Shown here: piece by piece, positions 9,776 through 25,645 of the stretch
Layout: the number at the start of each line of letters is the position of its first letter
How positions within the stretch are numbered: position 1 is the stretch's first letter
Source of the DNA: a virus
DNA length: 25,645 nucleotides
IMG/VR virus record: IMGVR_UViG_3300048037_000865
Coordinates: 1-25,645 of that record
Strand: one strand, 5' to 3'
Made by a program: the position numbers and the translations under genes
Notes under the pieces: generated by a model
What the model was told of the DNA's origin: nothing
The model's database searches: none
The model's input: the letters and a program-made list of their open reading frames with translations, nothing else

Positions 9776-11635
9776 TTATAAAGGTACTACTCTACCTTTT
9801 ATATCATCATTTAAATTTTTTACTTCAAATATAGAAGGATCTAAACTAGGATATATTACTTTATTTAATGTGGCTGATGATAAATCATATCCATATTGAG
9901 AATATCCTAATGAAGCTCCTACTTTATTAGTAAATTTAATATCTTTTACTGTTTGAACTCCTTCTATCCTATCTAATCTTACAAATAAATCTCTTATAAT
10001 TATAGGTTGATTTATTTGCCATTTATCTCTATTGAAATATTCTTGTAATGAATTAATACAAGCTAATATTACTTGACTATTTATAAAATTAGGTAATACT
10101 ATTATTTCAAAATCAATACCTATATTAATAACATAGGCATCTTTTATTTCAATACTATCTCCTATCATTCTATTTTGAGAAAGATATGTTCTTAAATTCT
10201 TTTTTAATGCATCTGAAGCATTAGTAAACTCTCCATTTGTATTTTGTGATAAAATATACATACATAAAGTTTCAACTGTAGATACTTGGGTATCTAATGT
10301 AGGTTTTTCTATATATGCTTTAGCTATAGTTCCAAATCTAGGAGGCATACTCATAGCTCTAACCATATAATCATCTAATGTAACCGATCTTTGTTGTGCT
10401 GCTATTTGCATTAAAGTATTTTGTCTAATTTCTTCATCTGTATCTCCAGCTTGACCACCATCAGCCGCTGAAGGGTTATTACCAGCAACAGTTCCAAATA
10501 CATAATTAGCTATAGTATCATCTGCTAAATTAGGCAAATTAAATTTAGTATTTGTAGTATTAATTCCTTGCAAGTCATTAGAAGGAACATTAGATTCAAC
10601 ACCACCTCCTGTTAAATATCTTATGGTTAAAGTAGTATTTGTAGGAGCGATTCCATAAGTATTAGTAAATAAAAAGTTTGTTGGAGAATATGCAGTTGTA
10701 AGTTTGTTTTTTTCGAATGGTAAACCTATACCTATATTATTTGGATTTGGAATTATTTTTTCATCAGTATCATTAGGGTTACCTGCTCCAAATTGAATTT
10801 GTAAATTAGTTTCTGAAGTAAATCTTGTAGCAAATCTTCTTTGTACTTTTTTTAATTGGAGTAAAAAAGGTGTATTATTTTTATTATTAAAATAATTAGG
10901 ATCATTTACATTAGTGTTTTTAATACTATCATAAACCATTTCTTGACCTAAATAATCTACTTCATACCAAACATTACCATCACTATCAACACAATCTAAT
11001 ATTCCTATTATGTTGTTAGTATTAATATTAATTGTAGGAAATTGTTCAAAATCACCAAAACTAAAAGATTTTTGATTTATTGTACCCGAGATAGCATTTC
11101 TTTTTTTCTTTAAGAGAAAATATTGAGGAATATTTCCTGCTATTTGATATATTGATACTTCAGTTGGATCTAAAGAACTTGAAATTGAAAAATCACATTT
11201 ATCTTCTATTATAAAAGTTGCTTCAGGATTTAAATTTGAATTAATTGTAGTATTTTCTCCTATTGTTAAAGCATAATCAAAATCAGGAACAACATTAGAT
11301 CCTACGGTTTTGCCTGGGACTTGTTGGTATAATTCTAAAGTAGCTTGGGCTGCTCCTGTTGCTTTAGGTTTATATCCAAACATATAAGCTAATTCATATA
11401 AATTATTTGTTTGTCTAGCAAATTGAGTAAATGTTTCTTGTAATTGGTTGTCTAAATAAAATGACATTACATCACCTACATAAGCAGATTGTTCTATAAA
11501 CATCATACCAGGTGATGTAGGAGAAAAATCATTATAGGTATTAGGAAAATAAGTTTTAGAATATTCTATTAATTTAGCTCTAATATCACTAAATTCCCTG
11601 TTTAAATATTTTATATCTCTATTAGGTTGTGCCAT
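9776..11635 (-). CDS. Baseplate wedge protein, T4 gp6-like (baseplate J family)
   Basis: T4 gp6 and P2 gpJ form the core ring of the contractile baseplate wedge. At 619 aa this is close to T4 gp6 (about 660). The N-terminus RDIKYLNREFSDIRAKLIEY followed by FSPTSPGMMFIEQSAYVGDV is a signature I know from gp6-like proteins of marine myoviruses. The J-type core is seen at about 394-435: GQAGDTDEEIRQN then a VTLDDYMVRAMSMPPRFG segment. The C-terminal region (about 500-600) contains the ring-forming strands and INQPIIIRDLFVRLDRIEGV. It starts with a one-base overlap onto the stop of gp25, an adjacency seen in many contractile systems. Confidence in the family is high. Confidence 0.9.
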   Translation of the reverse strand: MAQPNRDIKYLNREFSDIRAKLIEYSKTYFPNTYNDFSPTSPGMMFIEQSAYVGDVMSFYLDNQLQETFTQFARQTNNLYELAYMFGYKPKATGAAQATLELYQQVPGKTVGSNVVPDFDYALTIGENTTINSNLNPEATFIIEDKCDFSISSSLDPTEVSIYQIAGNIPQYFLLKKKRNAISGTINQKSFSFGDFEQFPTININTNNIIGILDCVDSDGNVWYEVDYLGQEMVYDSIKNTNVNDPNYFNNKNNTPFLLQLKKVQRRFATRFTSETNLQIQFGAGNPNDTDEKIIPNPNNIGIGLPFEKNKLTTAYSPTNFLFTNTYGIAPTNTTLTIRYLTGGGVESNVPSNDLQGINTTNTKFNLPNLADDTIANYVFGTVAGNNPSAADGGQAGDTDEEIRQNTLMQIAAQQRSVTLDDYMVRAMSMPPRFGTIAKAYIEKPTLDTQVSTVETLCMYILSQNTNGEFTNASDALKKNLRTYLSQNRMIGDSIEIKDAYVINIGIDFEIIVLPNFINSQVILACINSLQEYFNRDKWQINQPIIIRDLFVRLDRIEGVQTVKDIKFTNKVGASLGYSQYGYDLSSATLNKVIYPSLDPSIFEVKNLNDDIKGRVVPL

Positions 11636-12108
11636 TATGTAAAGTTCATATTTAAAGTATCTGTAATATTTGTTTGATTAACTGAATATTTTAGTACTAC
11701 ATTAATAGTTTGTGAATCATTAGTCTTATTTATTTCTAAATTTAAAATATTTATATTAGAAAAAAAAGTTTCAAGGTTTTGTTGTATTCTTGATTCTAAA
11801 AAATCTAAATTATCATCTGTTAATTGTTCAAAAATAAATGATCTTAGCCCTGCACCAAATTGGGGGTTTAAAGGACGTTCACCTGGGTTAGTTAAAAAAT
11901 AATTAATTAAATTATTTTTAATTGCTGCTGCTGTTGTATAATTTGATGAAAATGGTGTATTAATTTTATTAGAAGGATTAAATAATAAATTAGATCCACT
12001 AATTGCAGAATTAGACACACCCATAGGTCCTGAAAAAGGTAAATTTACTCCTACAGCTGCACTTTTATTAAAGTCTATCGGAAATATTTGTTGTTGTCCA
12101 AATGCCAT
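11635..12108 (-). CDS. Baseplate wedge protein, T4 gp25-like
   Basis: The 157-aa protein carries the GPW/gp25 domain at about residues 52-150: AIKNNLINYFLTNPGERPLN, then PQFGAGLRSFIFEQ, then a helix with two-strand finish. The NPGER and FGxGLxxxxFE motifs are diagnostic. T4 gp25 binds the sheath and gp6 in the wedge and nucleates sheath contraction. It overlaps both neighbours by one base (12108 and 11635), so gp25 and gp6 are co-translated. The first 45 residues are an extended Asn/Ser-rich arm, longer than in T4 gp25 (132 aa). Confidence 0.9.
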   Translation of the reverse strand: MAFGQQQIFPIDFNKSAAVGVNLPFSGPMGVSNSAISGSNLLFNPSNKINTPFSSNYTTAAAIKNNLINYFLTNPGERPLNPQFGAGLRSFIFEQLTDDNLDFLESRIQQNLETFFSNINILNLEINKTNDSQTINVVLKYSVNQTNITDTLNMNFT

Positions 12109-12504: not shown

Positions 12505-14424
12505 TTAATCTGCTTTTAAATTGTTTTGTTTAATATAAAACGATAATTCATCCATTAGTATTTGATCATTAGAAGAAAATGACCATTCTCCTTTTAACAT
12601 TACAACCCCATTAGGTGCTTTTGCTATTGCTCTTCTTCTTTTAATAGTAGATTGAGTTTCTTCAGGTTCAGTATCTAAAGTAAAACCATTTACTACTGAT
12701 ATAACAGGATCTCTGGTTTCTTCAGGGAATAATATTGTTGGAATTTCTTCATTAGGTAAAGCTCCTTCTATATGACATTTTTGAATTAATGCATCTAATA
12801 GACTTAAAAATTGTAAAAGCCTAGCTATTGTTGTTGTTAATAAAGATAAAACTAAAAGTAGTCCTGATGTTACTACTTTTGCTTTTTTCAAAAATTTAGA
12901 TATTTTATCTAAAACTCCATCAGGTTCTAATAATTTTTTAGATGGATCTGGTGCTCCTAATCCAGCAATAGGAAAAGATGATACAAGAGATTTAAGAACT
13001 CCTAAGGCTACATCCGCTATAGTAATAGCTTTATCCGCAAAATCTACACCTATTTTTATAGTTTCTAAAGTATTAAATATATTTTGTAAGATTCTTGTTA
13101 AATCATTTTTTATTTTTATAATTTTATTTAAATCGTCTAGATTAGCAGGACATGTTGTATTTAATTCGTCCATTTTTTTTCCTAAAGCTTCTTGAGCTTT
13201 TCCTATTCCAAATTGCACTATTAATTGTAAAACTTGTGGAATTAAAGATTCACGAACCCTATCCATAATTTTTTTACTTATATCCTTTATAGCAAAAGTT
13301 TCTGGGTCTTTCAATTTTTGAGCTATTTCAATTCCTTTTATTACGGGAGGAGGAATAATTATTTCTTCTATTATAGCTTGTTTAATTGAAACTTTTTGAT
13401 TTTCTAATGGAATTAATATTTCAACATCTTTAAGACTTTGATCTAAATTAAAGGGAGAAACTTGTTCTGTGGAATAAAAAACTTTTGAAGCTATTATATC
13501 AAATATGTAAGTTTTTTTATTTTGATTTCCTTGATTATCTAAAACTGTCCATGTTTTTTGACCTACAATACCATCAACTTTAAGCCCATTTCCTTCTTGA
13601 AATGTTTTAACTGCTGCCGTTGTATCAGGTCCATATATCCCATCAACCTTTATTGCTAATAAAGTTTGTAAATCTTTAACAGCTTCACCTGTAGCTCCTT
13701 TTTTTATTAAAGGTCTTTGGAGAGCAACAACAGGAACATATGTCCCTATTAATTTAAATTTTCCATCTTCATCTGTAGTTGTAGATTCAGATTTACCAGG
13801 TTTTTTAATATTTGTTTTTACATTTGCTCCCTTAATAGGTTCATTGGTTTCTTTATCTATAACCATTCCTCTTAAATCAAAATTTTTAAGAGGTGTACCA
13901 TAACATGGAATATTTAATATATCTCCAGGAAATAATAAATTTTTATTTTGTAAATAATTTTTACCGTTAAAATAAGTTCTATCATTAGATTCAATTCTTC
14001 TACCTTTTAAAAAAGGATTTGCTTTGTATATTTGGTCAACTCTTTTACCTAAACTAACACCATCTTTAGGAAATAATCTTGCTATTTTATATAAAGTATC
14101 ATCTTTTATAACTGTGTATTCCTCCATATCTTCACATAGATTATCTTCAGCAATATTTGGGTTTTCAGCTAATTCTTCTTGTGGTTCATCTTCCAATACC
14201 TCTTCTGATTCTTCTGGAGTTGGTTCGTTTGAAAATGTTGTATTAGTAAATCTAGGATCATTTTTTGATTTTAACCATTCATATATTTCTCTATTTTGTA
14301 AAATAACTTCTTCATTTCTTAAAATATAACTACCATCAGGAATAATTCCTGCATCTTGAGCATCTAAAACATCACCAGGAGTAAGAAGTTCTCTTATTTC
14401 TATATCTGTAATAGGAGTTGTCAT
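12505..14424 (-). CDS. Baseplate hub-like protein with LysM, carboxypeptidase-regulatory-like and peptidoglycan-binding domains, 639 aa
   Basis: Domains in order: residues 67-100 are an acidic linker. A LysM at about 102-173 (EYTVIKDDTLYKIARLF ... LLFPGDILNIPCYG) binds glycan. A CarboxypepD_reg-like beta sandwich lies at about 184-232 (LRGMVIDKETNEPIKGANV, then DEDGKFKL). A PG_binding_1 domain lies at about 239-296 (KGATGEAVKDLQTLL, VDGIYGPDTTAAVKTFQ, VDGIVGQKTW). The C-terminal half is helical, with two hydrophobic stretches (about 485-515 and 530-560). LysM domains occur in baseplate proteins such as T4 gp53. No catalytic residues of a lysozyme or peptidase are evident, so it probably positions the tail tip on the cell wall. 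It overlaps the gp5-like gene by one base (TAATG at 14424). Confidence 0.75.
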   Translation of the reverse strand: MTTPITDIEIRELLTPGDVLDAQDAGIIPDGSYILRNEEVILQNREIYEWLKSKNDPRFTNTTFSNEPTPEESEEVLEDEPQEELAENPNIAEDNLCEDMEEYTVIKDDTLYKIARLFPKDGVSLGKRVDQIYKANPFLKGRRIESNDRTYFNGKNYLQNKNLLFPGDILNIPCYGTPLKNFDLRGMVIDKETNEPIKGANVKTNIKKPGKSESTTTDEDGKFKLIGTYVPVVALQRPLIKKGATGEAVKDLQTLLAIKVDGIYGPDTTAAVKTFQEGNGLKVDGIVGQKTWTVLDNQGNQNKKTYIFDIIASKVFYSTEQVSPFNLDQSLKDVEILIPLENQKVSIKQAIIEEIIIPPPVIKGIEIAQKLKDPETFAIKDISKKIMDRVRESLIPQVLQLIVQFGIGKAQEALGKKMDELNTTCPANLDDLNKIIKIKNDLTRILQNIFNTLETIKIGVDFADKAITIADVALGVLKSLVSSFPIAGLGAPDPSKKLLEPDGVLDKISKFLKKAKVVTSGLLLVLSLLTTTIARLLQFLSLLDALIQKCHIEGALPNEEIPTILFPEETRDPVISVVNGFTLDTEPEETQSTIKRRRAIAKAPNGVVMLKGEWSFSSNDQILMDELSFYIKQNNLKAD

Positions 14425-17109: not shown

Positions 17110-17858
17110 AAACTATTTAACATATTTTTTAAACCTTCACTTTTCATTGAGCCAAGTGCTTTGGTTTTTACATCTAATTTTTTAGCCTTAGGTTTATCTA
17201 AAACTTCTTCATTAAATTTTGATAGCCATACGTGTTCGAATTCGATTCTTGCTGCCATTAAGTCTGCCTGATGAATTATAAATACCATAGAAGTTCGAGG
17301 TTTTTGCTCTGGCATATAATTTTTTAAATAAGGCTCATTAGCTTGATCATATAAACCATCATGTAATTTAATAGTCATCCATTCATTTTCAGTAAGCTTA
17401 ATATCATGGTCAACTAGTAATTTAATAGATCTATCTGGGACTGACATATAGGCTAATTTTTTGTTGTATTGATACATTTCACCTAGGTTCTTTTTTCTCC
17501 AATCATCTTTAGATGGTAAATAAGCCATTTCTTCACCATTACCCATTTTTCCTAAATCATGGTTTATAGCTGAAAATACAAGTTCTTCAATGGTGTAATT
17601 TTGTTCTGTTCCAAATTTTTTCCATACCTCATTTATTTCTAAAGCACCTTCTATAACTCTATTAACGTGATCAATATAACCACCTGGAAATGCATTGTGG
17701 TAAGCTGTTTTATGTGATGCTGGCATTAGTACAAGGTCATCTTCGAATTTCTTGTAGAATGCTAATACTTTTTCTCTTCTAGGATCTGAGATGTAAGTAT
17801 TAATATAAGCTAAAAATTTATTCCAATTTGTTTGGATTTGTTCTGCTGATAGACTCAT
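17106..17858 (-). CDS. HD-domain phosphohydrolase, 250 aa
   Basis: HD-domain enzymes hydrolyse phosphate esters such as nucleotides or cyclic nucleotides using a metal pair. The metal ligands are visible: H64 in FPGGYIDHVNRV, H100-D101 in INHDLGKMG, H151 in LVDHD and D199 in IIHQADLMAARIE. The fold fills about residues 45-205. The C-terminal 40 residues are lysine-rich (DKPKAKKLDVKTKALG) and may bind nucleic acid. The gene overlaps the 56-aa gene by one base and the 94-aa gene by four bases, in the operon behind promoter 18048-18079. The substrate cannot be told from sequence; possibilities include nucleotide turnover or degradation of a defence second messenger. Confidence 0.8.
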   Translation of the reverse strand: MSLSAEQIQTNWNKFLAYINTYISDPRREKVLAFYKKFEDDLVLMPASHKTAYHNAFPGGYIDHVNRVIEGALEINEVWKKFGTEQNYTIEELVFSAINHDLGKMGNGEEMAYLPSKDDWRKKNLGEMYQYNKKLAYMSVPDRSIKLLVDHDIKLTENEWMTIKLHDGLYDQANEPYLKNYMPEQKPRTSMVFIIHQADLMAARIEFEHVWLSKFNEEVLDKPKAKKLDVKTKALGSMKSEGLKNMLNSL

Positions 17859-18028
17859 TATGCTTCTCTTTCTATTATATCCATTAAATCCTGGAGTGTT
17901 CCTAAAATATCTTGATGGGTGGAGTTATATTCTTCTCTTGTACCACCTCTGTTAACATTCATGTCTTGTTTTCTGATTAGACCATTTAGCTTTCCTAACC
18001 TATTTTGAACTATTTGTTTATTTCTCAT
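17858..18028 (-). CDS. Small protein at head of HD/sigma operon, 56 aa
   Basis: This frame was read directly from the sequence. It starts MRNKQIVQNRLGKLNGLIRK and ends LQDLMDIIEREA, with stop TAA sharing one base with the ATG of the HD gene (TAATG). It is 20 nt downstream of a strong promoter, so it is the first gene of the operon. It is helical and charged, with a central Gly-Gly (NVNRGGTREEY). No family is recognised. A role as an accessory of late transcription (for example a gp33-like co-activator) would suit the operon but nothing in the sequence proves it. Confidence 0.6.
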   Translation of the reverse strand: MRNKQIVQNRLGKLNGLIRKQDMNVNRGGTREEYNSTHQDILGTLQDLMDIIEREA

Positions 18029-18047
18029 AACTTTATTTTTATATATG

Positions 18048-18079
18048 GTAATATACGAATGTAATCTGGGGGATCCAAA
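18048..18079 (-). promoter_or_regulatory. Bacteroidota-type promoter for the HD/sigma operon
   Basis: On the coding strand: TTTG (18079-18076), exactly 20 nt ending TTCG, then TATATTAC (18055-18048). The start codon is at 18028. The known Bacteroidota consensus is TTTG at -33 and TAnnTTTG at -7. A 17-nt stretch around the -33 (18064-18080) is identical to that of the promoter at 19649-19680. Confidence 0.7.
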
Positions 18080-18090
18080 TTGTCTTTATT

Positions 18091-18140
18091 TTATCCAACG
18101 TTATCTAACGTTATTGCCTTTCACCTTTTTTTATCCTACG
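18091..18140. repeat. Three phased 10-bp repeats upstream of the operon promoter
   Basis: Copies TTATCCAACG (18091-18100), TTATCTAACG (18101-18110) and TTATCCTACG (18131-18140). Starts differ by 10 and 30 bp, so all face the same side of the helix. They begin 11 bp upstream of the -33 box at 18076-18079 and look like activator or repressor sites. Confidence 0.55.
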
Positions 18141-18173
18141 TTTTTTCAAACCCCGTGATGGGAACGTAATAGA

Positions 18174-18617
18174 TTAAGATTTCGACTCCAAATTATTTTT
18201 AAGATATTTTTGAATTTTTACTAGAAAAGCGCATTTTTCATACTCTTCTCGTTCTTCAAAGAAAGATATTGATAATTTTAACGATGTATCTAGATAATCA
18301 TCATGTTGAATTATTAAACTGCCTTGCCATACTTCATCATCTATTTTACAATCTTTAATATAACTCCAGGCTCTATGATGTGCTATATATTCTCCTACTT
18401 CTTCCATTTCCTCCATCCCAAAATCATCTTCAGGAGTCTTAAACATATTAATCATTTTTTTTTGAAATACATGCTGATTTAAAACAATTTTTTTAAACAT
18501 TCCAACTTTATAGGTTGGTGTTTTTTCAAAATCAGCCATATTAATAGTAGAGGGTGGCTCATCAGTGTATTTTTTATCATCACCTCCAAATAGATTAAAT
18601 ATATGATTAATGTTCAT
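18174..18617 (-). CDS. Conserved-looking phage protein, 147 aa
   Basis: I chose the ATG at 18617 (MNINHIFNLFGGDDKKY) rather than one 13 codons upstream, because the upstream extension lies inside a promoter (18626-18657). The C-terminal half reads EYIAHHRAWSYIKDCKIDDE and later LKLSISFFEEREEYEKCAFL, a helical pattern (YFExxEEYEKCAFLxKIQ) I recall from hypothetical proteins of marine T4-like phages. No catalytic motif or membrane segment is seen. It is monocistronic between a terminator upstream and the repeat-bearing operator region downstream. The -7 box is 8 nt from the ATG, so the transcript would be almost leaderless. Confidence 0.65.
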   Translation of the reverse strand: MNINHIFNLFGGDDKKYTDEPPSTINMADFEKTPTYKVGMFKKIVLNQHVFQKKMINMFKTPEDDFGMEEMEEVGEYIAHHRAWSYIKDCKIDDEVWQGSLIIQHDDYLDTSLKLSISFFEEREEYEKCAFLVKIQKYLKNNLESKS

Positions 18618-18625
18618 ATCGGTAA

Positions 18626-18657
18626 TAAATATAATAAAAAAAATAGGGCATAGCAAA
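18626..18657 (-). promoter_or_regulatory. Promoter for the 147-aa gene
   Basis: Coding strand: TTTG (18657-18654), 20 nt, TATATTTA (18633-18626). The start codon at 18617 is 8 nt beyond the -7 box. The TTTG lies within the T-rich tail of the upstream terminator, so terminator and promoter overlap. Confidence 0.6.
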
Positions 18658-18683
18658 TTAAAAAAGCCCCTATTAAGGGGCCT
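18655..18683 (-). terminator. Rho-independent terminator after the T9SS gene
   Basis: Coding strand stem GCCCC (18681-18677) / GGGGC (18670-18666) with loop TTAATA, followed by TTTTTTAATTT. It is 35 nt after the stop of the secreted FISUMP/T9SS gene, isolating it from the genes downstream. Confidence 0.8.
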
Positions 18684-18717
18684 AGTGTAATTAAAAATTA
18701 AAAAAATAAAATAAAAA

Positions 18718-19623
18718 TTATTCTTTAAATATTTTAACCTCTTTAGTTACATTTGGTGTTACTAATTTAAGAATATAAATTCCTTTTTTAAAATCTTGTA
18801 AATTTATTTGTAAACTATTATATACACCTAATAATATCCCATTAAGATTATATAATTTAGCAAAAATTAAATCTTCAGTATCTATGTTAATAAAATTACT
18901 AGTTGGGTTTGGGTATACATTTATTTCGATATTATCAATATAATTAATTCCAACAAAATTCCCATCTTTAATACACCTAATAGCATTTCCATTACTTGGA
19001 TTCCAAGAACCTACTCCAACTTCATCATAATCACTATCTAAATACATTCCAAAAGCATTATTAGATATATTAGAAGAAGGATCAATATCATAAGTATTAG
19101 ACCAATACCCAACACTAAATCCTAGATTATAAATTAAACTATCTTCTCTATAACCTGTAGGATATCCATTAAACCCATATATATCAATACCACTTCCATT
19201 ATTTAACCATCCACCTATAGATTTTAACACAATACCTGATTCTAAAGGGTGATCTTGTTCTAAATAACTCCTTAAAGTATCAAAATCACTTTCAGTAGGC
19301 ACCAACCATCCTACAGGACAAACATTTCTAGAATCATGAGCAACATAAAAATTATATAATAAACCATTATTTAATTCCCAATTAGCAATTGATAGACTAT
19401 CATTAAATTCATGTACATAAGCTGGAGTGGTAGAATTTGCTAAACTACCGTTTGTCATCCATTGAATAGTATCTCCGTTTTGAAATCTAGTTGTTTTTAG
19501 ATTTGAAGACATCCATTCTTGATGATTTATTATTGTTGTATTGTAAATATTTCCATTAATATCAGTAACAGTTTGACTTAATATTGAAAGAGGAAATAAA
19601 AGAGATATTATAACTTTTTTCAT
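18718..19623 (-). CDS. Secreted FISUMP-domain protein with type IX secretion C-terminal sorting domain, 301 aa
   Basis: Residues 1-16 are a signal peptide (MKKVIISLLFPLSILS). Residues about 20-219 match the Fibrobacter succinogenes major paralogous (FISUMP) fold, related to DUF1566: HQEWMSSNLKTTRF, LLYNFYVA, CPVGWLVPTESDFDTL, GYPTGYRE, YWSNT, NAFGMYL and finally GNAIRCIKD. Residues about 232-301 are a type A T9SS sorting domain: IEINVYPNPTSNFINID, LYNLNG, FKKGIYILKL and KEVKIFKE. Such tails direct proteins through the outer membrane, where they are cut and often anchored to the cell surface. So the phage appears to place a host-type surface protein on its host. It has its own promoter and terminator and is a typical moron. 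Role could be blocking superinfection or changing adhesion. Confidence 0.88.
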   Translation of the reverse strand: MKKVIISLLFPLSILSQTVTDINGNIYNTTIINHQEWMSSNLKTTRFQNGDTIQWMTNGSLANSTTPAYVHEFNDSLSIANWELNNGLLYNFYVAHDSRNVCPVGWLVPTESDFDTLRSYLEQDHPLESGIVLKSIGGWLNNGSGIDIYGFNGYPTGYREDSLIYNLGFSVGYWSNTYDIDPSSNISNNAFGMYLDSDYDEVGVGSWNPSNGNAIRCIKDGNFVGINYIDNIEINVYPNPTSNFINIDTEDLIFAKLYNLNGILLGVYNSLQINLQDFKKGIYILKLVTPNVTKEVKIFKE

Positions 19624-19648
19624 GACCTTTATTTTTTAATTTATGTCA

Positions 19649-19680
19649 TAAATATACGAACCCTATCTGGGGGATCCAAA
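19649..19680 (-). promoter_or_regulatory. Promoter for the T9SS gene
   Basis: Coding strand: TTTG (19680-19677), 20 nt ending TTCG, TATATTTA (19656-19649), then a 25-nt leader ending AAAGGTC before the ATG at 19623. The box and leader are nearly identical to those at 21679-21736. Confidence 0.75.
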
Positions 19681-19708
19681 TATTATTTAAAAAAAAGTTA
19701 ATTGTTTA

Positions 19709-20014
19709 TCACCAAGGAGTTCCTGCAACGATCCCACTTCCACTCGCCATAACATTTATAATTGCTACATTTTTGGATTCCATCTCAGATTGGGATACTT
19801 TAGCAAATAACCAAGATTTACAAATATCCTCAGTTAAACTATTATAAGATATATAACCTTCATCTCCTTCTGAAATATTATCAAGTGGAAGTTCTTTTCC
19901 TGATATTTTGTTAGAATGTAAATTATCAACAGATGATAAAGTCCATACTAAAGAAGTAACAATATCACTTCCATCATTTCTTTTAAGGGTGTCTATTGAC
20001 CAAGTATGTGTCAT
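19709..20014 (-). CDS. DUF7936-like phage protein, 101 aa
   Basis: The opening MTHTWSIDTLKRND and the ending GSGIVAGTPW, with a LTEDICKSWLFAKVS segment between, match a small family (DUF7936, from memory) that is widespread in phages, where members begin MTHTWxIxxLK and end xxGxPW. Its function is unknown; it is usually found near structural genes. It has a late-type motif 16 nt before the ATG, so it is likely expressed late even though it lies among accessory genes. Confidence 0.65.
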   Translation of the reverse strand: MTHTWSIDTLKRNDGSDIVTSLVWTLSSVDNLHSNKISGKELPLDNISEGDEGYISYNSLTEDICKSWLFAKVSQSEMESKNVAIINVMASGSGIVAGTPW

Positions 20015-20030
20015 GTTATTTGATTTTGGT

Positions 20031-20039
20031 TATAAATAT
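20031..20039 (-). promoter_or_regulatory. Late-type promoter motif ATATTTATA
   Basis: Exact 9-mer copy 16 nt before the ATG of the DUF7936-like gene; no -33 box at 20 nt. A 6-bp hairpin (ATCTCA at 20053-20058, TGAGAT at 20065-20070) lies just upstream on the coding strand. Confidence 0.5.
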
Positions 20040-20106
20040 GTAAAATTTCCCTATCTCAATATAATGAGATTAAAAAAGGCTACAATTTATTAGTAGTTAA
20101 AGGGAA

Positions 20107-20247
20107 TTAACTTAAATTTTTATATTCTTTTTCTAATTGTTCTAGCGCTTGAAAGTATTCTGCTTTTTCAAGTTTGGTAAGATTTGCGTACCATTTAGGG
20201 AAATCTCCTCCTTTAATTTTTAACAACTCTTCTTTTAGGTCTCTCAT
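20107..20247 (-). CDS. Small protein, 46 aa
   Basis: Read directly from the sequence: it begins MRDLKEELLKIKGGDFPKWY and continues ANLTKLEKAEYFQALEQLEK. The coding strand carries a purine-rich stretch and the gene lies 9 bases after the T5orf172 gene. Short, helical and charged with a WYANLTKLEKAEY core that looks like a small helical domain. No function recognised; it reads as the last gene of the lipoprotein operon. Confidence 0.5.
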   Translation of the reverse strand: MRDLKEELLKIKGGDFPKWYANLTKLEKAEYFQALEQLEKEYKNLS

Positions 20248-20256
20248 TTTTAGGTT

Positions 20257-20727
20257 TTATTTATAATGTTTTCCAAGTTTTTCAATTGCCTCTTGTGCTT
20301 CAACCAACGGTATATCAAAAAACTCCCGTTGTTGATTCACGCGATAGGTTGCTAATTCTTCGTGGACTTCTCTTTCTAGTTGCTCACCATTAAAACATTG
20401 AAATGCCCATTCTACTTTATATGGTAAAGCTACTCCCGTGGAAGCACTAATTTGTTTAGCCCTTACCTCTGGTTCGTTTTTTGTGTACCCTATTTTAAGA
20501 ATATTGGGTAATGTAGGATTTGATAATATATAAACCCATTGATCAGCATCACCTCTGTTAGCATATATGTCTTTACGTCTTGAGGTGTAATATGTTATTT
20601 TATCCCATCCATCTTCATCTTCTGTTTTAGTGTAAAATCGGATAGGTGAATCTAGTAGGTCTTCTTCTAAACTAAAATATTTGGATGCTTTTTCTTCAGT
20701 TATTTTTTTAATATTAGGTTTAGACAT
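20257..20727 (-). CDS. T5orf172/MUG113-type GIY-YIG-superfamily protein, 156 aa
   Basis: Residues about 64-150 form the T5orf172 domain: WVYILSNPTLPNILKIGYTK carries the two signature strands (YIL, KIG), R89 lies in the next helix (EVRAKQIS), and a LEREVHEELATYRV helix holds the Glu and His, followed by REFFDIPLVEAQEAI. Members are phage and host proteins related to GIY-YIG nucleases and are often fused to DNA-binding or anti-repressor domains; here about 60 N-terminal residues have no recognised domain. It shares one base (TAATG) with the 91-aa gene. Base composition is visibly less AT-rich than the structural genes. Nuclease activity is plausible but untested. Confidence 0.8.
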   Translation of the reverse strand: MSKPNIKKITEEKASKYFSLEEDLLDSPIRFYTKTEDEDGWDKITYYTSRRKDIYANRGDADQWVYILSNPTLPNILKIGYTKNEPEVRAKQISASTGVALPYKVEWAFQCFNGEQLEREVHEELATYRVNQQREFFDIPLVEAQEAIEKLGKHYK

Positions 20728-21002
20728 TATCGCATTTTTTGTGAACGTGCATTACGTTCGGTTAAAACTTTACTTGAAACAATTTTATTATTATTTTTTG
20801 GTGTAACTTTTCGATTGGTTCCATAAGCATATAAGGGACCTTCATACTCCTCACCTTGTATTCTTCTTTTACCATCGAATGATCTAAAATCAGTTGGGGT
20901 AACTCTGTGCCATCTGGATAATCCTGGCATGTATATTTCTAAATGTTTAGCCTCATTAAAGAGGTATTCCATTTTTTCTATATCACCTGTTTTTTCACTC
21001 AT
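20727..21002 (-). CDS. Hypothetical phage protein, 91 aa
   Basis: The sequence contains PGLSRWHRVTPTDFRSFDGK and EEYEGPLYAYGTN, which suggests a compact, aromatic-rich domain followed by a basic tail (KVTPKNNNKIVSSKVLTERN, ending RSQKMR). No family is recognised. The ATG is one base after the stop of the lipoprotein gene and the gene overlaps the T5orf172 gene by one base, so the three form an operon from promoter 21705-21736. Confidence 0.55.
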   Translation of the reverse strand: MSEKTGDIEKMEYLFNEAKHLEIYMPGLSRWHRVTPTDFRSFDGKRRIQGEEYEGPLYAYGTNRKVTPKNNNKIVSSKVLTERNARSQKMR

Positions 21003-21003
21003 G

Positions 21004-21678
21004 TTATATAACGTTTATTGTGAATTGAAATGTTTCGATTTGCTCATCCCCAAAATGAGAATTATTATAATGAACTTTAATAAAAACATTTATTTGATCA
21101 CCTACCATTTCATCATCAAGTAGAAAATTTTGGGTTGGGTTATAATTATATCTTGAATGTGAACCTATTATAGTTGGAGCATAAGGACAAGTTGTACAAA
21201 AATGCATAGGTATTTGATATCCAGCTATATTGTATGGTGGATGAGAAGCAATTAAATCATTCATTGTGTAAGTATAATTACCTATTGGAATTGGAGTTGA
21301 TAAAGTATTATCATTGAACCAACCTAAATATGAATATTGTGGTATGGTAAAACTTAATGAATCAAATACTACCCAATAATCTGAGTCATACATGCAGTCT
21401 ATTTGTGGTACATCATTAATCTCAACATAATCCCCTTCCATTTTTTCTAATTGACCTGTTATTTGGAAGTAATTTAAACCATCCCATGCTATATTATATT
21501 CACCATTTGAACTTGGGTTTATAGCTTGCCCTTTATATATTATTTGAAATGTGGAATTACAATCTCCATCAGGACAGGGGGAACCTTGGATTGTATCAAT
21601 TTTTTTACATGATGGAGCAAATATTAGTGATAATATGAGCGCTAAAAATAGTAATATTGTTTTTGTTGAATTGTTCAT
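21004..21678 (-). CDS. Phage-encoded Bacteroidota-type lipoprotein, 224 aa
   Basis: The N-terminus MNNSTKTILLFLALILSLIF followed by APSCKK is a lipoprotein signal; Cys24 would be lipidated and the SCKK form is typical of flavobacterial lipoproteins. The mature part has further cysteines at CPDGDC and CTTCPY and another at IDCMYDSDYW, suggesting disulphides or metal binding, and is rich in beta-prone Tyr/Ile/Asn segments. No known domain is recognised. It has its own promoter and leader, almost the same as those of the T9SS gene. Surface lipoproteins of phages commonly block superinfection or change host surface properties; that role is inferred here. Confidence 0.8.
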   Translation of the reverse strand: MNNSTKTILLFLALILSLIFAPSCKKIDTIQGSPCPDGDCNSTFQIIYKGQAINPSSNGEYNIAWDGLNYFQITGQLEKMEGDYVEINDVPQIDCMYDSDYWVVFDSLSFTIPQYSYLGWFNDNTLSTPIPIGNYTYTMNDLIASHPPYNIAGYQIPMHFCTTCPYAPTIIGSHSRYNYNPTQNFLLDDEMVGDQINVFIKVHYNNSHFGDEQIETFQFTINVI

Positions 21679-21704
21679 AACCTTTATTTTATTAATTTAT
21701 GTCA

Positions 21705-21736
21705 TAAATATACGAACCCTATTTGGCTCCTCCAAG
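21705..21736 (-). promoter_or_regulatory. Promoter for the lipoprotein operon
   Basis: Coding strand: CTTG (21736-21733), 20 nt ending TTCG, TATATTTA (21712-21705), then a 26-nt leader to the ATG at 21678. Confidence 0.7.
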
Positions 21737-21753
21737 CATTTTTATGAGAGTCT

Positions 21754-22098
21754 TTAAGAAATAGGTCCTAGTTGTGTGCGATTGTCAAATTCTACAGTAT
21801 TTGCTGCTCCTCCGTTTAGTGAAACTTCTACTTTACCTGCTCCTCTTAGTGTTATTAAACCTCCTGGAATGTTTGCTCCTGGTGTGAATACTATTGATGA
21901 AGAACCTTCTGGGATTGATATTGCCATTTGGTAGTCTCTTACTACTATAGCTTCTCTTTGTATGTTTGTTAGGGTTCCAAAAGTAGTTCCTAAAAAATAT
22001 TTTTCAAGGAAGTTAGCAGGGTAGGGTTGATTTTCAGGTTGTGTTTCTAAAACTACATATCCTCCTTGTCCAGTGTTGTTAAATGATAGTGTTGCCAT
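21754..22098 (-). CDS. Small beta-rich phage protein, 114 aa
   Basis: It begins MATLSFNNTGQGGYVVLETQ and ends VEFDNRTQLGPIS. The middle (MAISIPEGSSSIVFTPGANI, then LITLRGAGKVEVSLNGG) is a run of alternating strands and Gly turns, as in capsid-decoration or fibre-head domains. No signal peptide, membrane segment or cysteine. It follows the 66-aa gene by 11 bases and a late-type motif variant lies 3 nt before its ATG. A virion component is likely but not shown. Confidence 0.55.
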   Translation of the reverse strand: MATLSFNNTGQGGYVVLETQPENQPYPANFLEKYFLGTTFGTLTNIQREAIVVRDYQMAISIPEGSSSIVFTPGANIPGGLITLRGAGKVEVSLNGGAANTVEFDNRTQLGPIS

Positions 22099-22101
22099 GG
22101 T

Positions 22102-22110
22102 GATAAATAT
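22102..22110 (-). promoter_or_regulatory. Late-type motif variant ATATTTATC
   Basis: One mismatch to the 9-mer found before late genes, and only 3 nt from the ATG at 22098, so it would act only through a leaderless transcript, or in translation. It overlaps the stop codon of the 66-aa gene by one base. Confidence 0.3.
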
Positions 22111-22310
22111 TATCTACCCCAAGGAAGATTTTTAAGTATTATAATAATGGCAGCAGGCCATACTATTATTATGAATATTCTTGTGAATGTGTCGTATTCT
22201 ATTTTTTCTTGTAGTTCAAATTCAATTTTTTTTGTATACATTAGTAAATGCATGTCTAGTAGAAACATTATAATGATTCCAATTAGTAAATAGTATAGTA
22301 TAAACATCAT
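22110..22310 (-). CDS. Two-membrane-segment small protein, 66 aa
   Basis: Two hydrophobic segments, about residues 3-24 (ILYYLLIGIIIMFLLDMHLL) and 44-59 (RIFIIIVWPAAIIIIL), are joined by a charged linker (TKKIEFELQEKIEYD). Small proteins with this plan are common in marine phages without known function; a holin or membrane-signalling role cannot be told apart from sequence. Expressed from promoter 22321-22352, whose -7 box is 10 nt from the ATG, with the 114-aa gene following. Confidence 0.55.
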   Translation of the reverse strand: MMFILYYLLIGIIIMFLLDMHLLMYTKKIEFELQEKIEYDTFTRIFIIIVWPAAIIIILKNLPWGR

Positions 22311-22320
22311 ATCTTTTACA

Positions 22321-22352
22321 TAAATATACGAAAATTGGATGGGGGAGCCAAG
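22321..22352 (-). promoter_or_regulatory. Promoter for the 66-aa/114-aa genes
   Basis: Coding strand: CTTG (22352-22349), 20 nt ending TTCG, TATATTTA (22328-22321). Confidence 0.7.
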
Positions 22353-22436
22353 TATTTCTCATGAGCTCTTTCTTCATATTATACACTTAACATACGTATA
22401 TACTTTCCATAACAATAAACCTTTTATTAAGAAAAA

Positions 22437-22468
22437 TTTGGGGGGTATGAACTCTTTTATTATATTAA
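22437..22468 (+). promoter_or_regulatory. Plus-strand promoter in the divergent region
   Basis: TTTG (22437-22440), exactly 20 nt starting GGGGG, TATATTAA (22461-22468). No gene follows closely; the next protein gene starts 260 bases on, so this may drive a small RNA or a long leader. Confidence 0.45.
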
Positions 22469-22474
22469 TCATAA

Positions 22475-22620
22475 CCTTGAATGGGGGATAAACAATAATA
22501 CCGAATATATAAGAAGCGAGTATTATAATATATTCCAGCATTTATATAGTAAGTAAGTTCATTGACATACTGAGGGAGATATTTATGTTATGTCATGTTA
22601 TCCTCCCCTATATTTTTAAT
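22475..22620 (+). ncRNA. Candidate small RNA between promoter and stem-loop
   Basis: Inferred from a promoter at 22437-22468 and a stem-loop at 22574-22607 (GGGAG-ATA paired with TAT-C-CTCCC, one bulge, 17-nt loop) followed by CTATATTTTTAAT. The stretch has no sensible ORF. Sequence family unknown; low confidence. Confidence 0.2.
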
Positions 22621-22698
22621 CGCTATGTTTCTTGTGTGGTGGATTATTATGTATTTTGTTCTGGAATATATGGATGGATGAGGCTAGGTTCTAGATAA

Positions 22699-22730
22699 TT
22701 TGGCTACCTTTAACCTTTTTTGTATATTAT
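22699..22730 (+). promoter_or_regulatory. Promoter for the GIY-YIG gene
   Basis: TTTG (22699-22702), 20 nt, TATATTAT (22723-22730). The -7 box overlaps the ATG at 22729 and ends just before the ATG at 22735, so the RNA may start at 22735 and be leaderless. Confidence 0.55.
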
Positions 22731-23259
22731 GGGTATGGCAAAAATATGTGGTAAATGTAAAAGTCCTCTTATAATAGGAGAAAATACAACAAAAGCACGT
22801 CTTAAAAATTATGATTTAACTTGTAAATCCTGTCTTAACAAATATAGCGCTAAAAGGAATAGAGCATTGTGGAAAAAGAGGAGTAGCGAATCTTTTCCTG
22901 GTGTTTATATGATATTTGAAGATAATATCTTAGTCTATATAGGTGAATCCTCCCGTGTTTATAATAGAATATGGGTCCACTTCCATACCTCTCCCAATAC
23001 CAAAAACGGGATTGGGGTGAAGAGCAAAGATAAACATAGATATGAGTGTGTTCAGTTATGTGTGGAAGAAAACTTACATAAACGTTTAGCAATAGAACTG
23101 GAGTTGGTTGGTGAATATAAACCTAAATATAATTCCCCATATAAAAATATATACCTAGATAATCCTAGTGTATATCCCCTTGTCGACGATGAGATTTTGT
23201 TAAAAGAGAGAGTTTTGGATTTTTTGGATTTTGATACTTTTATTATAAACGGGTTTTAA
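22729..23259 (+). CDS. Free-standing GIY-YIG endonuclease with N-terminal zinc finger, 176 aa
   Basis: It is on the opposite strand to almost every other gene. Four cysteines at 7, 10, 32 and 35 (CGKC, CKSC) form a zinc finger of the kind that binds DNA. The nuclease follows: G58-V59-Y60 (FPGVYMIF), Y70-I71-G72 (VYIGES), R80 in the first helix, a Glu in RLAIELELVGEY (E123 or E125) and N135 in KPKYNSPY. All core catalytic positions are present. Numbering is from the ATG at 22729; the real start may be 22735, six bases on. Such genes in phages are usually homing endonucleases that spread themselves into related genomes. Flanking long non-coding stretches suit a recent insertion. Codons differ from the structural genes. 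Confidence 0.8.
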   Translation: MGMAKICGKCKSPLIIGENTTKARLKNYDLTCKSCLNKYSAKRNRALWKKRSSESFPGVYMIFEDNILVYIGESSRVYNRIWVHFHTSPNTKNGIGVKSKDKHRYECVQLCVEENLHKRLAIELELVGEYKPKYNSPYKNIYLDNPSVYPLVDDEILLKERVLDFLDFDTFIINGF

Positions 23260-23275
23260 TCCCTTATTTTTTTAT
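23251..23275 (+). terminator. Possible weak terminator after the GIY-YIG gene
   Basis: GGG, a 7-nt loop holding the stop codon, CCC, then TTATTTTTTTAT. The stem is only 3 bp, so it may not fold in the cell. Confidence 0.25.
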
Positions 23276-23402
23276 AGATATAGGTATATACAACATCGAT
23301 GGTAAAGAGGTATACTTCTGTTAAACATACATCTACCTTTTTTTACCCGATATCCACACGTATATAGATACTTGCGCGTATGGGCTATATACAATATTAT
23401 GT

Positions 23403-23414
23403 GCGTACGTACGC
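23403..23414. repeat. 12-bp perfect palindrome
   Basis: GCGTACGTACGC, set in an alternating purine/pyrimidine run from 23398 and GC-rich against an AT-rich background. Could be a protein-binding site or Z-DNA-prone. Confidence 0.6.
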
Positions 23415-23433
23415 CGCCCGCAGCATTAAATAC

Positions 23434-23457
23434 TATGGTATAACATTCTATAGCATA
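23434..23457. repeat. Imperfect inverted repeat
   Basis: TATGGTATA (23434-23442) and TATAGCATA (23449-23457), arms matching at 8 of 9 positions with a 6-nt centre. Operator-like. Confidence 0.45.
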
Positions 23458-23506
23458 ATAAGGTAAATACTATAAATGTAAAGGGTAATATAGTTGTGAA
23501 TATATT

Positions 23507-23689
23507 ATGAACACCGATAACGCCAGTTTACTTATATTATTAAGTACGGACAACAAACCCCCTACCATAGTAGAGGGTACGTTGGACCTTATTTATGCAC
23601 GCGATGTAAGTATAGGGCTAGACATAACGAATACCCACGTTGTTACCCTACACACCGGGCCAGTCATTATATTACGCTGCTTTAAATAA
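23507..23689 (+). CDS. Doubtful small ORF, 60 aa
   Basis: The frame opens MNTDNASLLILLSTDN and ends LHTGPVIILRCFK, with beta-prone alternation. Against it: many codons end in C (AAC, ACC, GAC), unlike the AT-ending codons of neighbours, no promoter of the 20-nt family precedes it, and it overlaps the end of the opposite-strand 121-aa gene by 18 bases. In favour: a clean ATG start directly after a TATATT box. It could be spurious. Confidence 0.25.
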   Translation: MNTDNASLLILLSTDNKPPTIVEGTLDLIYARDVSIGLDITNTHVVTLHTGPVIILRCFK

Positions 23690-24037
23690 AGCTGGGTGAG
23701 CAAACGGATTATCCTCTAAATAGTCAACACAATCGCTATGATCGGCTTTAATCCATTCTGCTCGTTGGGTAATACCACTAACAAATAATTCAGCGTTGAA
23801 CCATTTATTTAACTCCCCTGTTTTACTGGTAGGCATTTTATCATATCCATCAGGCACGATAGTGGTTTCTTTCCACTTAGCTACGATGTGGGGAACCATT
23901 TTCCCCGTTTCGTTCTCCATTTGCTCCACCATAATGGAAACTGGGAAATCAATGCCGTTAGATGGTGTCATTAAACCATGTTTGATTAATTCATTTTGAA
24001 TTACACCTACTGCTTTTTTAATATCTACTTTATTCAT
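23672..24037 (-). CDS. Hypothetical phage protein, 121 aa
   Basis: A compact soluble protein starting MNKVDIKKAVGVIQNELIKH, with a conserved-looking centre (VSIMVEQMENETGKMVPHIV, then AKWKETTIVPDGYDKM) and an acidic C-terminal part (ADHSDCVDYLEDNPFAHP). Not recognised. Base composition is clearly less AT-rich than that of the structural genes, hinting at separate origin. It has the same promoter-leader style as the T9SS and lipoprotein genes (leader ending AAAGGTT before the ATG), preceded by 10-bp repeats and an inverted repeat, so it may be separately regulated. Confidence 0.6.
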   Translation of the reverse strand: MNKVDIKKAVGVIQNELIKHGLMTPSNGIDFPVSIMVEQMENETGKMVPHIVAKWKETTIVPDGYDKMPTSKTGELNKWFNAELFVSGITQRAEWIKADHSDCVDYLEDNPFAHPALFKAA

Positions 24038-24061
24038 AACCTTTATTTCTTATTTACACCG

Positions 24062-24093
24062 TAAATATACGAACCCTCCCTCGCCCCTCCACG
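24062..24093 (-). promoter_or_regulatory. Promoter for the 121-aa gene
   Basis: Coding strand: degenerate -33 CGTG (24093-24090), 20 nt ending TTCG, TATATTTA (24069-24062), then a 24-nt leader. Confidence 0.6.
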
Positions 24094-24433
24094 CCTCCCC
24101 GCATAGACAGTCGTGAATAGTCGTGAACAATTATGTTGTTCATATATATTTTTAAGGTAAGTTGAAAAAATGTGGCTTGCGGCATGGAAAGGTTAACACC
24201 AGGTGCATCTTAACCCATATCCACCCATACACGTTGTTCATATACTATTGTCTACTTATGTTGGTTTGTCATATTTAATGCTTGCTCTATAGATGTTATA
24301 TAATTTACTCATCCACCCCATCAAATACCACGTTAATCAACTATCTACAACGCGATATAAACACGTTCAAACAAAAAACACGGAATGTTATTCAAAAATA
24401 TAACCACGCTTTATCCACAAAATATATTCCAGG
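24094..24433. other. Non-coding regulatory stretch
   Basis: No convincing gene. It contains tandem 10-bp repeats and an inverted repeat (24109-24142) and a 12-nt direct repeat GTTGTTCATATA at 24135-24146 and 24233-24244. The plus strand is rich in C from about 24300 on. Confidence 0.5.
24109..24142. repeat. Tandem 10-bp repeat plus inverted repeat upstream of promoter
   Basis: AGTCGTGAAT then AGTCGTGAAC (24109-24128), overlapped by a perfect 7-bp inverted repeat TGAACAA (24124-24130) and TTGTTCA (24136-24142). It begins 15 bp upstream of the -33 box at 24090-24093, a plausible operator. Confidence 0.5.
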
Positions 24434-24649
24434 TTATCCAACATTAGTAGAACCACCATATTGCTCCTCCACATTATGCTTCACCCCATATCGATTTAAG
24501 ATAGTAACATCTTGTATCACACCCATTTTAGTATTATGTATAAAGCTCATATGCGTCATAGGAGTAGTTATCGTATAAGTCACTACTGGGATATCCGTAT
24601 TACCCCCCACATTACTGTTATCAAGAGCTTTTTTAGTTTTCTTACTCAT
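24434..24649 (-). CDS. Hypothetical small protein, 71 aa
   Basis: Begins MSKKTKKALDNSNVGGNTDI, with TTPMTHMSFIHNTKMGVIQD in the middle, and ends EEQYGGSTNVG. Basic N-terminus, no membrane segment, not recognised. It overlaps the next upstream gene by four bases (ATGA at 24646-24649), supporting it as a real gene of the right-hand cluster. The coding strand is G-rich relative to C. Confidence 0.5.
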   Translation of the reverse strand: MSKKTKKALDNSNVGGNTDIPVVTYTITTPMTHMSFIHNTKMGVIQDVTILNRYGVKHNVEEQYGGSTNVG

Positions 24650-24861
24650 AACTTACCTATTTCATAATATGAACTATTATTTTTACTTCCGTCACCAAAG
24701 AAATTAAACAACTCCATATCCGACTGTTTTATCACAACTGAATCCCAATACTTTATAGACATAGTAGTCTTATAGGTATTAGCCTCATCTAGTGTTTTAA
24801 ATCTCTGTAGATCAATCTGATCATTACTTTGGTCTCTAGAAAAAACATAAAACCATTCCAT
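24646..24861 (-). CDS. Hypothetical small protein, 71 aa
   Basis: MEWFYVFSRDQSNDQIDLQR then FKTLDEANTYKTTMSIKYWD: a compact alpha/beta sequence with aromatic strands. No family recognised. Five bases after the 86-aa membrane/coiled-coil gene and overlapping the following gene, hence co-transcribed. Confidence 0.5.
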   Translation of the reverse strand: MEWFYVFSRDQSNDQIDLQRFKTLDEANTYKTTMSIKYWDSVVIKQSDMELFNFFGDGSKNNSSYYEIGKL

Positions 24862-24866
24862 AACTT

Positions 24867-25127
24867 TTAATTTAAAATAACAGTATCAGGTTGTAAACCA
24901 CCATTAGCACAACATGAGCTTAATATAGCGTTTTCCTCCTCAATACTAATAATATAATCATTTAATTTAGCATTTTCCTGCTCCAAATCAAATATCAAAT
25001 CAATATGAGTAGCATCCTTATCCTTACACTCATTTAATAATTGATTTAACGCTCTACTTTTCCCAAATTGCCAAGTCATAATAAGCATAGACAATATTAT
25101 TATTAATGATATAAATCTTCCTTTCAT
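24867..25127 (-). CDS. Membrane-anchored coiled-coil protein, 86 aa (second of pair)
   Basis: N-terminal membrane segment (about 5-21, FISLIIILSMLIMTWQF) followed by a coiled coil rich in Glu and Asn (about 42-70, LEQENAKLNDYIISIEEENA). A Cys-Cys pair (SSCCANGG) lies near the C-terminus. The N-in anchor plus long periplasmic helix is the plan of an inner-membrane spanin, but no outer-membrane lipoprotein partner is seen beside it. It sits one base after the other 86-aa gene of the same plan. Confidence 0.55.
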   Translation of the reverse strand: MKGRFISLIIILSMLIMTWQFGKSRALNQLLNECKDKDATHIDLIFDLEQENAKLNDYIISIEEENAILSSCCANGGLQPDTVILN

Positions 25128-25128
25128 A

Positions 25129-25389
25129 TTAATTATAATTTACAGTATTAGCAGAATTAGTATCAGAATAATCAATTGCCATCTCATCAATTAATGATTC
25201 AATTCTATTCATCTGAGTTTTCATATCGAATATCTCCACTTGCATATCACTCAGGTCTTCCTCCATATGAAACCACCTATCCAACATATCAATTTCCCTA
25301 TGTTTTAAAGTATGATTTTCATTTATTAACCACACAGCGCCAGTAAACGAAAGTATAATTAATATCATTAGTATATTATTTGTTTTCAT
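25129..25389 (-). CDS. Membrane-anchored coiled-coil protein, 86 aa (first of pair)
   Basis: N-terminal membrane segment (about 5-21, NILMILIILSFTGAVWL) then a Glu/Asp-rich helix (about 33-72, MLDRWFHMEEDLSDMQVEIF) ending in an Asn/Thr tail. Same plan and length as the neighbouring 86-aa protein, but the sequences do not align closely by eye, so either an old duplication or two parts of one complex. Four bases after the 57-aa gene. Confidence 0.55.
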   Translation of the reverse strand: MKTNNILMILIILSFTGAVWLINENHTLKHREIDMLDRWFHMEEDLSDMQVEIFDMKTQMNRIESLIDEMAIDYSDTNSANTVNYN

Positions 25390-25393
25390 AATT

Positions 25394-25567
25394 TTAACTG
25401 ATTAATTTTTTTAAATACTCATTATATTTTAAGAACTGAGTTCGAGCCATTTGATCAATATATCCAAACTGCACTGCTTGATCTGCAATTTGTTTACGTA
25501 ATTGTACAACACGTTTTTCAACATATGCTATGTGTTTACGTTTTTTATGTTTTATAAAAAAATTCAT
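25394..25567 (-). CDS. Small basic protein, 57 aa
   Basis: Read from sequence: starts MNFFIKHKKRKHIAYVEKRV and ends FLKYNEYLKKLIS. Strongly basic and helical, no membrane segment. First complete gene of the right-edge cluster before the membrane/coiled-coil pair. Not recognised. Confidence 0.5.
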   Translation of the reverse strand: MNFFIKHKKRKHIAYVEKRVVQLRKQIADQAVQFGYIDQMARTQFLKYNEYLKKLIS

Positions 25568-25582
25568 ACAATAATAAATATC

Positions 25583-25645
25583 TTATTTTTTATTTTCTTT
25601 ATCTCGCTCGTCCATTTTCTTTTGAAACTCCATAAAACTTTTATC
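25583..25645 (-). CDS. C-terminal fragment of a gene cut by the right edge
   Basis: Twenty codons and a stop are visible, ending FQKKMDERDKENKK; highly charged helix. The frame is open to the window edge, so it is likely the end of another small gene in the cluster, 15 bases before the 57-aa gene. Confidence 0.35.
   Translation of the reverse strand, partial: DKSFMEFQKKMDERDKENKK

Follow-up and report, generated by a model that had tools for sequence, protein, structure and literature searches.

A predicted type IX secretion cargo with a FISUMP domain, encoded in an accessory stretch of a phage with a T4-like baseplate

The DNA analysed here, called the window, is a 25,645-base IMG/VR contig that carries a T4-like contractile-tail gene block on its minus strand. 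A gene located upstream of this block, on the same strand, encodes a protein with a signal-peptide-like N-terminus, a FISUMP body and a type IX secretion system (T9SS) type A sorting tail, and is very probably a genuine accessory gene of a marine phage, with a predicted T9SS substrate as its product.

Architecture and predicted structure of the cargo protein

The gene encodes 301 amino acids between an ATG start and a TAA stop, exactly in the coordinates, frame and strand that had been read from the sequence alone, and an open frame of 301 codons has a chance of about 7e-11 in DNA of this composition. The gene and its parts are:

18718-19623, minus strand: type IX cargo gene, with signal-peptide-like N-terminus, FISUMP body and T9SS type A sorting tail (domain profiles; identical second copy in contig L002)
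19576-19623, minus strand: signal-peptide-like N-terminus, residues 1-16, MKKVIISLLFPLSILS^Q (read from the sequence; like the pattern in other phage T9SS cargo)
18964-19554, minus strand: FISUMP (Fib_succ_major) domain, residues 24-220 (profile matches; confident body model; best solved-structure matches C-type-lectin-like)
18724-18918, minus strand: T9SS type A C-terminal sorting domain, residues 236-300 (profile matches; model matches substrate tails in 8glk, 8gl8, 8glj and 8qb1)

The N-terminus, which reads MKKVIISLLFPLSILSQ followed by TVTD, shows by eye a basic n-region, a hydrophobic h-region and a short c-region. FISUMP and sorting tail were called with the curated Pfam and NCBIfam cut-offs, and both domains lie above them. 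The body matches PF09603 (E=1.2e-24, 88 bits, cut-off 33.9, residues 32-219) and, over the full length of the domain, TIGR02145 (E=1.5e-23, 84.4 bits, cut-off 41.65), while the tail matches TIGR04183 (36.5 bits, cut-off 23, residues 236-300; E=1.2e-11 in the whole-record search) and PF18962 (33.9 bits, cut-off 27). These matches, two of them to the profiles named for the purpose by the sequence-only reading (TIGR04183 and TIGR02145), bear out its proposal of a complete T9SS cargo with a FISUMP body in one phage gene. Its description of the body as FISUMP/DUF1566-like holds in the first part only: the profile search reported no DUF1566 match for the protein, so FISUMP is the right name.

The protein was modelled with AlphaFold2 from an alignment of 60 viral FISUMP rows, which gave a confident body (pLDDT 90.8, residues 17-222) and a tail of moderate confidence. 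The tail model has the beta-sandwich fold of known substrates and matches solved T9SS substrate tails, which are 8glk_D (prob 1.00, TMt 0.63), 8gl8_D and 8glj_D, substrates in type IX complexes, and 8qb1, the mirolase tail; the probabilities are 0.92-1.00, but the E values only 0.03-0.34, for a tail modelled with moderate confidence. Since the alignment held no tail homologues, this structural match is separate from the profile hits. For the body model alone, Foldseek placed the C-terminal domain of the Legionella adhesin Lcl first and the Bacteroides fimbrial protein 4eps third, followed by many C-type lectins, each match being weak and none significant alone (best E 0.039). As a set, these individually weak matches are consistent, and agree with published work in which FISUMP and DUF1566 are inferred to be related and to have a common C-type-lectin-like fold (PMC4159848; PMC8143477).

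Phage context, accessory stretch and control signals

The T4-like tail block includes:

9776-11635, minus strand: baseplate wedge
11635-12108, minus strand: gp25-like protein
12505-14424, minus strand: LysM/peptidoglycan-binding protein

Among cultured phages, Flavobacterium phage immuto (Immutovirus, host Flavobacterium sp. LMO8) is the best relative, at 47% identity across the full length of the baseplate wedge protein. A Microcystis phage record is similarly close (44.7%), so that a Bacteroidota host with a T9SS is an inference from the relatives. A phage integrase was sought in the window, which is a fragment, in six related records and in immuto; none turned up, which is compatible with the lytic type that had been suggested.

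Contig L002, of 5,848 bases, was assembled independently from a different metagenome; it is 99.98% identical to window positions 17445-23292, covers both flanks of the cargo gene and has a single mismatch, at 21765, outside it. The cargo gene is thus carried by a genuine phage. A bacterial contig joined to a phage contig, which had been named as the finding that would undo the proposal and which the occurrence of the same domain architecture in bacteria could favour, is strongly argued against and was rejected, as L002 spans both junctions, the same misassembly would be needed twice and the gene has a promoter of the phage family, so this explanation keeps a negligible probability.

Comparison with relatives defines an accessory stretch and its surroundings:

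18637-20104, no strand assigned: accessory stretch of about 1.47 kb, none in close relatives (approximate limits, nucleotide alignment with L005)
19709-20014, minus strand: the other gene of the cassette, DUF7936 (PHROG 7802), 101 amino acids (profile match; missing from L005, L015 and L039)
20257-20727, minus strand: conserved flanking gene, T5orf172 domain (profile match and comparison with relatives)
18174-18656, minus strand: conserved flanking gene, uncharacterised (comparison with relatives)
19649-19679, minus strand: promoter-like site TTGG-N15-TTCGTATATTTA, one of a five-copy family (exact match)
21705-21735, minus strand: sister promoter site of the lipoprotein-like gene (same motif family)
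18664-18683, minus strand: intrinsic-terminator-like hairpin followed by a T run (sequence pattern)
21004-21678, minus strand: conserved exported lipoprotein-like gene (promoter and leader almost the same as those of the cargo gene; homologous gene in the isolate immuto)

The stretch contains the cargo gene, its promoter, its terminator and the DUF7936 gene, which accompanies the T9SS gene there and gave no match in named phages. Three close relatives (L005, L015 and L039) are without the stretch and keep the flanking genes, so that the T5orf172 gene, a small ORF and the 18174-18656 gene stand together and the gap between the two larger flanking genes is 164-223 bases, compared with 1,600 in the window. 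Searches of 49 other virus records from the baseplate-related group, among them many fragments, gave no match to TIGR04183 or PF09603, and the cargo gene occurs in one phage population only. An accessory gene with its own predicted control signals in a conserved setting, present in one phage and absent from its relatives, has the pattern of a moron.

The promoter-like motif has five sites in the window at two or fewer mismatches (18048, 19649, 21705, 22321 and 24062), compared with 0.12 expected in shuffles; each precedes a gene on the minus strand, and the motif is kept at orthologous places in a 50-kb relative. These genes probably form one regulated class of the phage. The motif resembles the -33/-7 promoter of Bacteroidota, TTTG / TANNTTTG (PMC6847099), but A replaces the last G of TANNTTTG, the consensus being that of Flavobacterium, and it may therefore be a phage-specific variant. 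The terminator is modest evidence as a single site, because the region has 10 such sites compared with 3.3 expected. By consensus, then, the motif and the hairpin agree with the suggestion that the gene has a promoter and a terminator of its own, both as predictions. The promoter copy of the cargo gene, with its leader, is most like that of the lipoprotein-like gene. The product of that gene, which has a lipobox-like ...FAPSC, lies at the same locus in relatives, is 31.6% identical to its immuto homologue and is another candidate surface protein of the phage group.

Related proteins in other phages and in bacteria

T9SS sorting tails are encoded by other phages as well. The crAss-related gut phages encode BACON/T9SS proteins (PMC6949934), which resemble the window protein in joining a carbohydrate-binding-type domain to a T9SS sorting domain in Bacteroidota phages, and differ in having BACON instead of FISUMP, in coming from gut and not marine phages and in lying near head genes. 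Cryophage has three T9SS cargo genes, for which the authors suspect use of the host type IX system (Nat Commun 2020, PMC7468147). Those are also variable phage genes for proteins with T9SS type A sorting domains, but the bodies are an endoglucanase, a GH39 glycoside hydrolase and a PA14 protein, whereas the window gene has a FISUMP body, belongs to a different lineage and has its own promoter and terminator.

A pattern scan of IMG/VR with one codon pattern for VYPNPT gave at least 120 stretches, and all 33 records selected among them for a tail-like C-terminus passed TIGR04183, as did one further FISUMP record. T9SS tails are therefore present in at least 34 further IMG/VR records, some of which may be misclassified or proviral and several of which exceed 90 kb, and in immuto, which answers the proposed search of phage databases. 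The bodies that bear these T9SS tails differ and include cohesin domains. Phage T9SS cargo is thus recurrent, with published precedents from 2019-2020, and the window gene is a new example and not a new principle; the uniqueness implied by the sequence-only reading was overstated in view of the two publications, the many IMG/VR contigs and the isolate immuto.

The viral contigs also hold a recurring cargo of about 800-1,050 amino acids (L097, L105, L112, L114, L131, L165, L196 and similar), which starts like ...AQ(N/D)SW..., ends in a T9SS tail and in some cases has GCTD..AYNYNP repeats; the two members tested (L131 and L112) have no Pfam domain other than the tail.

FISUMP domains, which were sought in viruses with a four-sequence alignment, are found in 281 confirmed stretches, mostly at the C-terminus of long tail-fibre-like proteins without a signal peptide. 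Among the best 80 of these 281 loci, FISUMP and a T9SS tail are joined only in the window phage. Five other viral FISUMP proteins (L245, L254, L259, L274 and L296) are short and have a signal peptide or lipobox without a T9SS tail, and the 85-kb record of L296 has a T9SS tail at another place. Published phage FISUMP/DUF1566 proteins, which include targets of diversity-generating retroelements (PMC8143477, PMC4159848), share the domain family and the presumed C-type lectin fold, but in most cases the domain ends a long protein that lacks export signals, or a reverse transcriptase diversifies it. The cargo protein as a target of such an element was rejected, since RVT_1 is absent from all 50 records, which are the window record and the 49 others; likewise, no VR/TR-like repeat was seen within 17400-25645 of the window, which is a fragment of its genome.

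In bacteria, two genes (L327 and L328) encode signal peptide, FISUMP and T9SS tail in the same order as the window gene. They belong to bacterial genomes and are too distant for a direct donor, the cargo protein being 30% identical to L327 over 272 columns. Body relatives in a phylum sample reach at most about 37-45% identity, none of 50,697 phage records gave a named phage relative of the protein, and a genome scan with the single protein for a close bacterial donor returned only a tail match with 24% identity. Because the same three-part protein exists in bacteria, the simplest origin would be uptake of a host-type gene, even if the FISUMP-domain tree leaves its placement unsure: the window protein is on a long branch without supported neighbours, outside a 44-row viral group.

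Proposed mechanism and competing explanations

The phage would be an Immutovirus-related phage of Bacteroidota with a T4-like baseplate and a two-gene moron-like cassette, the second gene of which encodes a host-type exported protein. This gene would be transcribed from the phage-family promoter that precedes it, and the signal peptide would direct the product to Sec export. By analogy with its family, the C-terminal beta-sandwich tail would then be recognised by the SprA-PorV translocon and a PorU-type sortase of the host, cleaved, and the protein attached to the surface or released. The lectin-like FISUMP domain may bind a ligand at the surface or in the matrix of the infected cell. This whole explanation, a phage T9SS cargo exported to the surface as a lectin-like binder, is in our judgement somewhat better than even.

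The likeliest benefit would be receptor masking against adsorption of competing phages, and the second a changed adhesion or aggregation. Superinfection interference is favoured for two reasons: phages use this body family to end tail-fibre-like proteins, and the promoter of the cargo gene is of the same type as that of another exported phage protein; as the purpose of the gene, such interference is put forward tentatively, at something over one chance in three.

The main rival, with about a quarter of the probability, is that the secreted FISUMP protein alters aggregation, gliding or particle attachment, so that released phage meets more hosts. The solved structure closest to the body is a domain of the adhesin Lcl, with a fimbrial protein third, and cohesin domains occur in other phage T9SS cargo, but the structural matches lack significance one by one and nothing ties the cargo gene to motility or biofilm. 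It is improbable that the gene is a neutral passenger, recently acquired from a host and without use as yet. Its absence from near relatives and its restriction to one phage population would fit such a passenger; against it, the open frame is intact with complete export signals, the phage-family promoter is almost the same as the one ahead of a conserved phage gene, the same arrangement is present in a second sample and T9SS tails recur on differing bodies across many phages. Much less probable still is a virion protein, like a tail-fibre tip, that gained its T9SS tail by chance. Although FISUMP is common in long tail-fibre-like phage proteins and T4-like baseplate genes lie nearby, the protein has a signal peptide, a short size and the sorting tail at its extreme C-terminus, the gene has its own predicted promoter and terminator, relatives with the same tail module are without it, and the tree puts the protein, in an unsure position, outside the viral group.

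How phages exclude superinfection and convert the cell surface has been studied well in Enterobacteria and lactic acid bacteria, but little is known of it in Bacteroidota, many members of which rely on the type IX system to build much of their surface. Should phages make regular use of the T9SS, they would have an outer-surface route that is closed to phages of most other phyla. For superinfection interference, the broader idea would be that virulent Bacteroidota phages commonly coat the infected cell through the T9SS with lectin-like decoys or masks against competitors, made from domains like those at tail-fibre ends. Such a strategy is speculative and rather unlikely; if it is true, the window gene would be a single instance of a general, unrecognised remodelling of the cell surface by phages.

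The idea is directly testable in the laboratory, since cultured immuto has its own T9SS-tailed protein. This protein, immuto35A_15 (QQO91933.1; MW353176.1 positions 12691-13422, or 1692-2423 of L213), combines a cohesin domain with a T9SS sorting tail (TIGR04183, 45.4 bits), and is annotated only as a cohesin domain-containing protein, with the tail unmentioned; a paper on Baltic Flavobacterium phages (PMC7077304) mentions neither immuto nor sorting tails. Like the window cargo, it is a short T9SS-tailed protein predicted to be exported, in a baseplate relative, but its body is a cohesin domain and its gene is at another place in the genome, with an annotated C-type lectin gene close by.
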